From positions 62,001 through 126,000 of the forward strand of contig NZ_FXTJ01000002.1 in assembly GCF_900182545.1 (NCBI RefSeq): DNA of 64,000 nt, read 5' to 3'. Position 1 is the stretch's first letter. The number at the start of each line of letters is the position of its first letter. Source of the DNA: Geodermatophilus aquaeductus (GTDB lineage: Bacteria; Actinomycetota; Actinomycetes; Mycobacteriales; Geodermatophilaceae). The position numbers and the translations under genes are program-made. Below, piece after piece: positions 9,045 to 12,342 of the stretch. Below the pieces are notes generated by a model, which saw nothing but the letters and a program-made list of their open reading frames with translations, was not told the origin of the DNA and ran no database searches.

Positions 9045-9635
9045 CTAGTTGGCGCGGATCCCCAGCACGCCGGTCACCAGGGCGTCGACCACCGTCGTCG
9101 CGGCCTTGAGGTCGGGGTCCCGGGCCACCATGACGTCGGAGTAGAGGAACGACTCCCCCAGCCGGACGACGGCGTAGGACAGCACCGGCAGCGGGACCTC
9201 CGAGGCCAGCCCGCGCGCCTCGACGTCGCGCTCGAACAGGTCGGTGTAGGCCTCGACCAGCCGCGGCTGGACCCGTCCGCGCGGGTCGGTGAGCACGCGC
9301 AGCGCGGTGGTCGGCTCGTCGTCGATGAAGCGGCGCAGCGACGTCGCGGTGCCGAGCACGTTGCGGTAGTCCTCCATGATCGCCAGGCTGCGCAGCCGGC
9401 CGGCCGGCTCGGCGCCCTCGGGGCGGGCGTCGTGCGCCTCCACGGCCCGCTGCAGCGTCCGCTCGGCCAGCCACCACATCGCCTCGCCGAGGATGGCGTC
9501 GCGGTTGCCGACGCGGCGGAAGAGCGTCACCCGCGAGATGCCCAGCTGGCCGGCGAGCGTGGTGGTGTCCAGCCGCTCGCCGTCGAGGAGGGTGCGCGCC
9601 GCCCGTCGGACGACCTCTTCCCGGGGCGCGATCAC
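9045..9635 (-). CDS. TetR-family regulator, QsdR-like
   Basis: A 196-aa regulator. The N-terminal HTH (residues 5-50) reads [20 protein letters not shown]. The C-terminal part, with [22 protein letters not shown] and [13 protein letters not shown], resembles the C-terminal domain of QsdR, the regulator of lactone-degradation genes in Rhodococcus; this is a family resemblance, not proof of the same ligand. It lies downstream of the secreted hydrolase gene on the same strand, but a strong hairpin separates them. Confidence 0.82.
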
Positions 9636-9703: not shown

Positions 9704-9735
9704 GGGCGGCCACCGTGCGTGCACGGTGGCCGCCC
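9704..9735 (-). terminator. intrinsic terminator of the polyester hydrolase gene
   Basis: A perfect 15-bp inverted repeat: GGGCGGCCACCGTGC, two-base loop GT, then GCACGGTGGCCGCCC. It begins 21 bases past the hydrolase stop codon on the minus strand, so it would end that transcript before the QsdR-like gene. No T-run follows, as is common for actinobacterial hairpin terminators. Confidence 0.75.
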
Positions 9736-9756: not shown

Positions 9757-10632
9757 TCAGACCGGGCAGGTGTTCCGGTAGTCGGACACGTCGCCGAACA
9801 GCGAGACCGACGGGCCGGGGCAGATGAACTGCGAGTACCGGGTGTCGGTGTCGACGAACCGCTTGAGCCAGGCGATCGTGGTGGCCGCGATCACCGTGTT
9901 CGGGCTGTTGGGCGCGAAGTGGCTCGCGTTGTTCAGCTCGAGGTAGGCCCGCTCGGGTGCGTTGGTCAGCGAGTTGTAGAACGGGATGGAGTGGCTGCTG
10001 ACCGGGGCGACGCTGTCGCTCTCGGCCCCGATGACCAGGGTGGGCGTGCGGACCTCGGGCCAGGTCTTGTCGGTGTTCCAGCCGGTCAGCGGCACCGCGG
10101 CGCGCAGGCTCGGCCGGTCCTTGGCCGCCTCGAGCGTGCCGCCACCGCCCATGGAGTGGCCGACGACGGCCAGCCGGGAGGCGTCGACCCGGGTGCGGAC
10201 GGCGCTGGACCCGGTCAGGTAGTCGAGCGCGGCGAGCAGCTGGTCACCGCGGGAGGCGGGCTGGTCGTAGCGCGAGTTGGTGTCGATGACGATGACGACG
10301 AAGCCCTGCGAGGCCAGCCGCGGCCCGAGCCAGGCGACGGTGTCCCGGCCGGCGGTGTAGCCCGGCGAGATGGCGACGCCACCGAAGGTGCCCTGGGTGG
10401 TCGTCGTCGGGTAGTAGATGGACGCGGCGCCGAAGCCCGGGGTCGAGAAGTCCGACACCGTCGTCGACGCCGTGGCGAACGGGCCGGACGTGGCCGAGAT
10501 GCTCGCCTGCGTCGGGGCCGGCCCGCGCCACCAGGACTCGTCGGCGCCGGCCGGGGAGGCGCCGGCGACCACGGTCGCCAGTGCGGTGACGGTCGCCGCG
10601 AGCGCGCCCGTCAGGAGACGTCTGATTCGCAC
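9757..10632 (-). CDS. secreted PET-hydrolase/cutinase-like polyester hydrolase
   Basis: A 291-aa alpha/beta-hydrolase very like the cutinases of Thermobifida, LCC and Ideonella PETase. A Sec signal peptide (VRIRRLL, hydrophobic core, cut near [11 protein letters not shown]) precedes the enzyme. Visible catalytic triad: S160 in GHSMGGGG, D206 in [11 protein letters not shown]238 in NNASH. Oxyanion/substrate residues: Y92 (SPGYT), M161, W185 ([10 protein letters not shown]). C271 and C289 match the C-terminal disulfide. The residue before S160 is His, as in thermophilic cutinases, not Trp as in PETase. GTG at 10632 is preceded by AAAGGA six bases away, which rejects the longer frame. Likely extracellular on cutin, suberin or short-chain polyesters. 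Confidence 0.93.
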
Positions 10633-10881
10633 GGATGTCCTTTCGACCGGACCGCGGGCACGCAGCACCCACCGCGGGAGGAGAGGGGCCGCTCCGGCGT
10701 CGGGTCCACGGGGTGTGGTCTGCGTCACGCCGTTGCGTGTTCGTAACGTAACTGGTGGCGACTGCCCTGATCAATGCCTGGATGGAACATTTTCCGTTCC
10801 TGTTGCATCCGGGCGTGTCGCCACTTCCCGTGCGTTCACCGGGACACCGTGGACGGCGGTGGTGCACCAGCATCGACGGGC
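10633..10881. other. divergent promoter region between hydrolase and gnd
   Basis: A 249-bp non-coding gap between divergent genes. It contains the direct repeat GTAACGTAAC at 10743-10752 and an unusually AT-rich stretch, GATGGAACATTTTCCGTTCC (10781-10800), with a GGAAC/GTTCC dyad. These are plausible promoter or regulator sites, but I cannot assign -35/-10 boxes with confidence. Confidence 0.4.
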
Positions 10882-12342
10882 ATGACCGCAGCGACGACAC
10901 CTGCCCCCGACGGCGACATCGGCGTCACCGGGCTGGCCACCATGGGCGCCAACCTGGCCCGCAACCTCGCCCGGCACGACTGCCGGGTGGTGGTGCACAA
11001 CCGCACGAGGGCGCGCACCGACGCGCTGGTGGCGGCGTACGGCGACGAGGGGGCGTTCGTGCCCACCGGCTCGGTGGCGGAGTTCGTCGCGGCGCTGGCC
11101 CGGCCGCGGAAGGTCGTGGTCATGGTGCAGGCCGGCGCCCCGACCGACGCCGTCGTCGAGGAGGTCGCCCTGCTGCTGGAGGCCGGTGACGTCCTCGTCG
11201 ACGGCGGCAACGCCCGCTACACCGACACCATCCGGCGGACGCGGGCACTGGCCGAGCGCGGCGTGCACTTCGTGGGCTGCGGGATCAGCGGCGGTGAGGA
11301 GGGGGCGCTGCTCGGGCCGAGCATCATGCCCGGCGGCTCGGACGAGGCCTACGCGATCGTCGGCCCGCTGCTGGAGTCGATCGCGGCCGTGGTCGACGGG
11401 ACGCCGTGCTGCGCCCACGTGGGCACCGACGGCGCCGGCCACTTCGTGAAGATGGTGCACAACGGCATCGAGTACGCCGACATGCAGCTGATCGCCGAGG
11501 CCTACGACCTGCTGCGGGCGCGGCTGGGCCTGTCCCCCGCCGAGATCGGCGAGGTCTTCGCCGGGTGGAACGCCGGCGACCTGGAGTCCTACCTCGTCGA
11601 GATCACCGCCGAGGTCCTGCGCCACGTCGACGCCGCGACCGGGCGGCCCTTCGTCGACGTCGTCCTCGACGAGGCCGAGCAGAAGGGCACCGGGCGGTGG
11701 ACGGTGCATTCGGCGCTCGACCTCGGGGTGCCGGTGAGCGGCATCGCCGAGGCGGTCTTCGCCCGGGCGCTGTCGGGGCACACCGCGCAGCGCGAGGCGG
11801 CGCGGGCGGTGCTGCCCGGCCCGGCCGAGGACCCGGCGCCGGTGGCCGACCGTGACGCGTTCGTCGAGGCGGTGCGCCGGGCGCTGTACGCCTCGAAGGT
11901 GGTCGCCTACGCGCAGGGGTTCGACCAGATCGCCGCCGGCGCGCGGGAGCACGGCTGGGACATCGACCTCGGGGCGCTGGCCACCATCTGGCGCGGCGGG
12001 TGCATCATCCGCGCCCGCTTCCTCGACCGGATCCGGCAGGCCTACGCCGACGAGCCCGACCTCACCACGCTGCTCACGCACGGCTACTTCCGCGACGCCG
12101 TCGCCGACTGCCTCGAGGGCTGGCGGACGGTCGTGGTCGAGGCCGCGCGGGCCGGCATCCCGGCGCCCGGGTTCGCCACCGCACTCGCCTACTACGACGG
12201 CCTGCGCGCCGAGCGGCTGCCCGCCGCCCTGGTGCAGGGGCTGCGCGACCTCTTCGGTGCGCACACCTACCGGCGGGTCGACCGCGAGGGCGTCTTCCAC
12301 ACGGTGTGGTCGGAGGACCGGCGCGAGGTGCAGGCCGGCTGA
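10882..12342 (+). CDS. gnd: 6-phosphogluconate dehydrogenase, decarboxylating
   Basis: A 486-aa oxidative pentose-phosphate enzyme making ribulose 5-phosphate, CO2 and NADPH. The N-terminal Rossmann motif is GVTGLATMGANLARNLA with NRT for NADP. VDGGNARYTDT, CGISGGEEGALLGPSIMPGG and the catalytic-site HFVKMVHNGIEYADMQ are present, as is the C-terminal substrate tail with GAHTYRRVD. The length fits the dimeric class. ATG at 10882 is chosen because the region before it is AT-richer promoter-like DNA. Confidence 0.96.
   Translation: MTAATTPAPDGDIGVTGLATMGANLARNLARHDCRVVVHNRTRARTDALVAAYGDEGAFVPTGSVAEFVAALARPRKVVVMVQAGAPTDAVVEEVALLLEAGDVLVDGGNARYTDTIRRTRALAERGVHFVGCGISGGEEGALLGPSIMPGGSDEAYAIVGPLLESIAAVVDGTPCCAHVGTDGAGHFVKMVHNGIEYADMQLIAEAYDLLRARLGLSPAEIGEVFAGWNAGDLESYLVEITAEVLRHVDAATGRPFVDVVLDEAEQKGTGRWTVHSALDLGVPVSGIAEAVFARALSGHTAQREAARAVLPGPAEDPAPVADRDAFVEAVRRALYASKVVAYAQGFDQIAAGAREHGWDIDLGALATIWRGGCIIRARFLDRIRQAYADEPDLTTLLTHGYFRDAVADCLEGWRTVVVEAARAGIPAPGFATALAYYDGLRAERLPAALVQGLRDLFGAHTYRRVDREGVFHTVWSEDRREVQAG

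Follow-up and report, generated by a model that had tools for sequence, protein, structure and literature searches.

A putatively secreted type I PET-hydrolase/cutinase-like enzyme, probably acting on natural polyesters, at a syntenic locus of Geodermatophilaceae

What is a PET-hydrolase-like enzyme doing in Geodermatophilus aquaeductus, a soil and desert bacterium that has one intact gene of this family? The gene was predicted from the window, which is the whole stretch of 64,000 nucleotides that was analysed. Its predicted coordinates are exact, and the strand, which the prediction lacked, is the minus strand (Table 1). The product is very probably an exported serine esterase of the bacterial cutinase/type I PET-hydrolase family that likely cuts natural polyesters, is transcribed alone, and is encoded by an old and often lost gene. 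The hydrolase is a new but otherwise ordinary member of a well-known, large and well-studied enzyme family, and adds a desert-soil lineage to the PET-hydrolase-type enzymes in what is otherwise a routine extension. It is notable mainly because most close relatives are without the gene and one has only its ruins. New here are the syntenic Geodermatophilaceae locus with a tetR gene beside it in all 11 cases, the CRP-like site, the patchy presence of the gene, and its remnant in a sister species.

Table 1. Features of the hydrolase locus, in window coordinates
Feature	Position	Strand	Remark
Type I PET-hydrolase/cutinase-like polyester hydrolase (P0003), putatively secreted, 291 aa	9757..10632	-	GTG start
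Signal peptide, residues 1-30 (RIRR n-region, hydrophobic core, AGA before D31)	10543..10632	-	By eye; cleavage site inferred
Shine-Dalgarno sequence AAAGGA	10638..10643	-	
CRP-like site GTGA-N6-CCAC, one mismatch to GTGA-N6-TCAC	10715..10728	-	Putative
Element ACGCAnCGnCGTGACGCAG	10720..10738	-	Overlaps the CRP-like site
Promoter-like TTGATC-N18-TACGTT	10745..10774	-	Candidate, by eye from a 7-locus alignment
Terminator hairpin, 14 perfect pairs, loop of 4, no U tract	9704..9735	-	3' of the hydrolase gene
TetR-type regulator, QsdR-like (TetR_C_36)	9045..9635	-	

The coding sequence ends in a TGA at 9757-9759, and has a GC3 of 0.97 and a GC content of 0.72, against 0.757 for the window. Position 10632 is taken as the start because the Shine-Dalgarno sequence, which the original prediction also reported, and the signal peptide both fit it, as does the GAAAGG or GAGAGG that precedes the start in 11/11 family loci. 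A longer open frame, reaching to 10728, was rejected because the Shine-Dalgarno sequence and signal peptide fit 10632. The genome holds no close paralogue; the second match has an E value of 3.5e-4 and 33% identity over 86 residues.

The hydrolase matches the Pfam family PF12740 (PETase, PET hydrolase-like) with 389.4 bits, against a cut-off of 28, at an E value of 1e-116 and over positions 3-263 of the 263-position profile. The general clan members PAF-AH_p_II, DLH and Abhydrolase_1 also pass their cut-offs, with 24-30 bits. The family of cutinases proper, PF01083 (CE5), is absent from the 7 Pfam families matched at E 0.01, and no PF01083 gene was found in the genome by a search whose control was positive in 1 of 14 genomes. 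The NCBIfam equivalog for BHET hydrolase (NF051441, BdeA) gives 464.9 bits, which is below its cut-off of 520.

The closest solved chains are the T. curvata entries, PET40, the S. exfoliatus lipase and ancestral PETases. Identity over the mature part is 69% to 7YKQ of T. curvata (175/255; 174/255 to 7YKO), 66% to PET40 (8A2C, an S178A chain; 170/258), 169/255 to the S. exfoliatus lipase 1JFR, and 166/258 to the ancestral reconstruction 8ETY. It falls to 57-61% for PES-H1 (157/258), LCC (149/253) and the T. fusca cutinase 4CG1 (147/259), and to 50% for IsPETase (126/252). A maximum-likelihood tree was built from 56 rows, comprising the query, 9 PDB sequences, 4 further family loci, and 42 loci drawn from the 80 that had been kept out of 363. 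All 11 Geodermatophilaceae rows fall into a single clade (99/98), nested among actinobacterial relatives. Under the midpoint root used, the PET40/1JFR and T. curvata clades lie inside this assemblage, and PES-H1, LCC, 4CG1, 8ETY and IsPETase lie outside. Of the 53 inner branches 10 are open, and assays exist for only a minority of the rows. The hydrolase thus groups with PET-hydrolase-type enzymes, several of them assayed, and not with a non-polyester esterase family.

In the enzyme's own numbering, the catalytic triad consists of S160, D206 and H238, so that the active site is intact, as predicted. Subsite I comprises Y92, M161, W185 and V208, as in LCC. The original prediction had listed Y92, M161 and W185 as oxyanion and aromatic residues; all are present, but M161 is an oxyanion and subsite I residue and is not aromatic. 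Subsite II includes H159 and F239, and H214 and F218 are also present. The sole cysteines, C271 and C289, are the terminal pair that had been expected. The cysteine positions of IsPETase are occupied by A203 and A240, the loop has a three-residue gap, and neither a second disulfide nor an extended loop is present.

Type I features were defined by Joo et al. 2018, who, in the excerpts of PMC5785972 used here, make the case that IsPETase acts more strongly on PET than type I enzymes do. The hydrolase has the type I triad, the type I subsite I, and a His plus a Phe/Tyr at the positions of IsPETase W159 and S238. Its residues also predict the type I arrangement of disulfide and loop, with a C-terminal Cys pair, no extra pair, and no extended loop. 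All of W159, S238, the second disulfide and the extended loop, which mark type IIb (IsPETase-like) enzymes, are missing. An IsPETase-type enzyme was rejected on the subsite II residues, where the hydrolase is cutinase-like and of type I; the original prediction had aligned it by eye with cutinases, LCC and IsPETase.

The AlphaFold2 model, made from a 43-row alignment, has a pLDDT of 85 and a pTM of 0.84, with residues 1-29 below 50. It fits solved relatives closely, and its top Foldseek match is 7ykp (E 1.8e-43, TM by target 0.96, rmsd 0.9). The best 50 matches listed are mostly PET hydrolases or cutinases, at rmsd 0.9-1.6, and include four ancestral-PETase entries at rmsd 4.8; LCC and IsPETase are not among them. 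The full-domain PF12740 match, the fold and the active site agree in supporting the predicted PET-hydrolase/cutinase-like enzyme.

The hydrolase can be compared with three groups of known enzymes. LCC (4EB0), the T. fusca cutinase (4CG1) and PES-H1 (7CUV), which are heat-stable, have H159, H214 and F218 in common with it; F239 is shared with LCC and 4CG1, whereas 7CUV has L there. The T. curvata entries 7YKO, 7YKP and 7YKQ share the fold, the triad, H159, F239, M161 and W185, but have F for Y92, I for V208 and Q for N242, and come from a thermophile host. IsPETase (6ILW) shares the triad and the Y/M/W of subsite I, but has W159 where the hydrolase has H, S238 where it has F, and S/I in place of H214/F218. 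The C203-C239 pair and extended loop of IsPETase are absent from the hydrolase, and its catalytic His is residue 237, one off from H238.

The neighbours of the gene are housekeeping-like, in agreement with the original description of the region. They include bcp-type peroxiredoxin, rdgB and rph-like genes (named by eye), the TetR gene and 6-phosphogluconate dehydrogenase, as well as genes for a LigD primase-polymerase, a metallo-beta-lactamase-fold protein, a cysteine-synthase-family protein and an HPP/CBS membrane protein. A PET-assimilation cluster was rejected on the nature of these neighbours and on the absence from the genome of two families that serve terephthalate use. The dioxygenase family PF00848 has 0 matches in the genome (control positive in 4 of 14 genomes), and PF04166 (TphB, PdxA family) also has 0 (control positive in 5 of 14). 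The prediction that no MHETase or terephthalate genes are nearby is correct for the neighbourhood, but elsewhere the genome encodes a secreted protein of the Tannase family (L138 on contig 15, 327 bits), and no second one was found. Its best solved match is 6fat, named carboxylic ester hydrolase (E 2.7e-50), with MHETase (2.5e-47) and an entry named feruloyl esterase (1.5e-45) close behind, and no NCBIfam model matches it at E 0.001. Because L138 is nearly equally close to MHETase and to fungal esterases, an MHETase-like partner elsewhere in the genome is possible. L138 may cleave MHET, and is a possible partner in ester breakdown.

It is exceedingly improbable, nevertheless, that the hydrolase belongs to a PET-using system and is adapted to plastic as in Ideonella. 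Its membership in the PETase family and the MHETase match of L138, which is nearly as good as that protein's best, would suit such a system, but the type I residues, the want of a second disulfide and extended loop, the absence of PF00848 and PF04166 genes from the genome, and the loss of the hydrolase in a sister species all speak against it. Moreover, the gene is surely older than plastic, because it is syntenic across genera. Complete use of PET by the host is unlikely, and for the hydrolase PET would be at most a promiscuous substrate.

We propose that the signal peptide sends the enzyme out of the cell, where S160, activated by H238 and D206, would attack esters bound in a shallow groove on the protein surface, the lining of which includes Y92, M161 and W185. 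The oxyanion would be held by the backbone NH groups of Y92 and M161, as the identical residues in solved relatives suggest. The likeliest substrates are aliphatic or mixed natural polyesters such as cutin and suberin, their debris, and short lipids, which would be used for carbon. BHET and amorphous PET would be expected as further, promiscuous substrates that are hydrolysed slowly. The idea of a natural substrate is illustrated by Sub1 of S. scabies, which, according to excerpts of PMC7104285, liberates fatty acids when acting on cutin and suberin, and terephthalate when acting on PET.

Actinobacterial members of the hydrolase's own family include PET40 and the Streptomyces LipA/BdeA enzymes, and what is known of the latter bears on a second reading, to which we give a real though less than even chance. 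The hydrolase might be a secreted lipase/esterase that plays no real part in polymer breakdown and acts on lipids of short to medium chain length, or on small aromatic esters of the feruloyl or BHET type. Near relatives are annotated as triacylglycerol lipase or lipase, and the secreted Tannase-family protein in the same genome would fit with the use of small esters. According to excerpts of PMC11169514, Streptomyces LipA degrades BHET, which is a better substrate for it than PET, and its deletion lowers BHET degradation in vivo. One variant attacks amorphous PET film, and the authors of that paper argue for feruloyl-esterase-like or polar-ester activity. However, the groove residues of the hydrolase are those of polyester hydrolases, and both T. 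curvata enzymes that have been assayed, Tcur1278 and Tcur0390, hydrolyse PCL and PET nanoparticles, as excerpts of PMC4231364 report. A PET hydrolase from Streptomyces sp. W2061 is also described, in excerpts of PMC11485624. Titles and abstract openings among the open-access matches listed include no assayed relative of the hydrolase from Geodermatophilaceae, and excerpts of an Antarctic-soil survey (PMC13422221) do not mention Geodermatophil- or Modestobacter.

The n-h-c pattern of a classical signal peptide is apparent by eye and from hydropathy, with a similar character in the 11 loci. A twin Arg is found in 6/11 family loci, and is absent from G028, G032, G038, G040 and G099. Because only six loci have the motif, Sec is likelier than Tat as the export route of the hydrolase, as the original prediction held. 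By comparison, a Tat signal is reported for ScLipA in the excerpts of PMC11169514.

The predicted private terminator corresponds to the hairpin at the 3' end of the gene. A consensus terminator scan does not call this hairpin, because it lacks a U tract. Over 12 loci (11 with the gene and one with a remnant), 99.4% of 165 cells pair, and 5 of the 14 pairs are altered on both sides. Covariation is scored at 0.313, compared with 0.084 for shuffles, whose count is not a probability because the rows are related; slid versions are 41-62% paired. The 14-pair stem is kept in the remnant genome G007, whereas in the five genomes of the genus that have tetR and no hydrolase (G003, G005, G010, G024 and G025) no perfect stem within 150 bases ahead of tetR exceeds 6 pairs. 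The hairpin was rejected as a TetR operator, since it is missing in 5/5 loci that have tetR but not even a remnant of the hydrolase. Because the presence of the stem tracks that of the hydrolase, the hairpin is best read as the putative terminator of this gene, which would thus be transcribed alone, from its own upstream region to its own terminator.

The adjoining TetR has only one solved relative at E 0.01, which is 4ZA6 (E 8.9e-12), the structure of QsdR; in Rhodococcus the qsdR gene adjoins a lactonase gene, as stated in excerpts of PMC4640858. This raises the possibility, which we consider rather unlikely, that TetR and hydrolase form one module, in which TetR would bind a polyester-derived lactone or hydroxy-acid, or a quorum signal, and thereby cease to repress the enzyme. 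The tetR gene lies 3' of the hydrolase, adjacent and on the same strand, in all 10 genomes with a full-length hydrolase and in Blastococcus L016, and this includes a Modestobacter in which the wider gene order is changed. Relatives of tetR also occur near the hydrolase outside the family: one with 37% similarity precedes it in a Frankiaceae contig (L017), and others, with 26-30% similarity, are divergently upstream in four Actinoplanes-type loci (L021, L022, L025 and L033). On the other hand, an orthologous tetR (77-97%) is retained beside bcp in six genomes of the genus that lack an intact hydrolase (the five named above and G007); the other 17 genus genomes have no tetR match above 45%. In addition, the terminator separates the two genes, the longest word common to their upstream regions in the window is 8 bases (7-12 in shuffles), and the conserved site upstream of the hydrolase looks CRP-like instead.

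The CRP consensus is GTGA-N6-TCAC. A site resembling it is located 87-99 bases ahead of the start codon in 11/11 family loci. It is exact in five (G028, G032, G038, G040 and G099), has one mismatch in G000, G002, G006, G110 and L016, and has two in G106. Among 1000 resampled upstream regions, an exact match occurs in 0-8 and a match with at most one mismatch in 45-118. The copy in the window is therefore weak alone, and it is the near-constant place across the family that argues for the site. The hydrolase is perhaps under CRP-like, carbon-status control, if the position of this putative site is a guide. A consensus promoter scan called no promoter upstream of the gene, and the pattern TTGAnC-N16to19-TA[CG]nnT, to which the candidate promoter in Table 1 conforms, occurs in 5/11 family loci. 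The overlapping element ACGCAnCGnCGTGACGCAG had appeared to be family-wide in 7 loci. This was rejected, because the element is exact in 5 of 11 family loci, has one mismatch in 2, and is missing from four. The genome contains a single exact copy of it; copies with 2 mismatches number three, compared with 1 in the reversed control, and no regulon for it was found there.

Near full-length matches, defined by an E value below 1e-100 and the only ones counted, are found in 10 of 112 Geodermatophilaceae genomes (G000, G002, G006, G028, G032, G038, G040, G099, G106 and G110). Within Geodermatophilus, 3 of 26 genomes have such a gene, and the hydrolase is therefore dispensable. The PF12740 cut-off is passed by 71/112 family genomes, and those beyond the 10 have partial alpha/beta-hydrolase matches; the genome of G. 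aquaeductus itself has three further PF12740 matches. The low cut-off of this profile over-calls by admitting partial matches to other alpha/beta hydrolases. A contig search, in which 80 of 363 loci were kept, gave six family loci at 78-92% identity, from Blastococcus TF02A-26, CPCC 205250, B. aurantiacus, G. nigrescens, G. amargosae and a Modestobacter; several of these are the same genomes as the G-numbered ones.

The surroundings of the gene are also shared. A bcp, DUF4262-like or ligD-pol gene is nearby in 8/10 hydrolase genomes, and none of these was present in the stretch fetched around the gene in G099 and G106. In Modestobacter L011, bcp and rdgB are on the other side of the hydrolase. 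As a separate observation, the 6-phosphogluconate dehydrogenase gene (gnd, 10882-12342) adjoins the hydrolase in G000 and G002 and is beside tetR in four hydrolase-less genomes, and it has no match at this spot in G006 or in the Blastococcus loci.

The sister genome G007, which has 93% DNA identity, carries a remnant of the hydrolase in which only a few codons at the beginning and roughly 34 at the end are left. The sequence corresponding to 9850-10605 is missing, and the stop codon and one cysteine are also lost. In G007 (L005 and L089), the remnant is located between tetR and the DUF4262-like gene, and gnd is not at its usual place. Where the gene is intact, 9 comparisons with the query give dN/dS (Nei-Gojobori) values of 0.19-0.40, and L008 against L016 gives 0.09. 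These values, together with the compensatory changes in the terminator hairpin, indicate that the hydrolase is maintained. Comparing sister species that have the gene with those that lack it at this locus should permit a direct test of its natural substrate.

The locus reads as an old Geodermatophilaceae gene that has been inherited vertically in place and often lost. A recent horizontal gain might be invoked for the patchy presence in 10 of 112 genomes and for a GC content a little below that of the window, but is very unlikely: the same locus is found in several genera, the sequences form a single clade, GC3 is 0.97, and a remnant occupies the same place in the sister genome. Exchange within Geodermatophilaceae may have occurred, since Blastococcus sp. 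TF02A-26 and CPCC 205250 are near Geodermatophilus in the tree. Beyond the reading of an old gene lost many times, the hydrolase could represent a type I lineage particular to this family, with CRP-like carbon control, possibly a lactone-sensing QsdR-like TetR, and a preference tuned to plant polyesters in dry soil. We regard this as speculative and of low likelihood; if true, the loss of the gene in a sister species would be a natural test of the family's role apart from plastic.

Recent transfer on a mobile element was rejected by synteny. Matches in the plasmid collection occur in 6 records, with a best identity of 63-64%. Two of the plasmids, from Clavibacter (hits H4 and H5), encode a 40%-identical relative that is annotated only as an alpha/beta family hydrolase.
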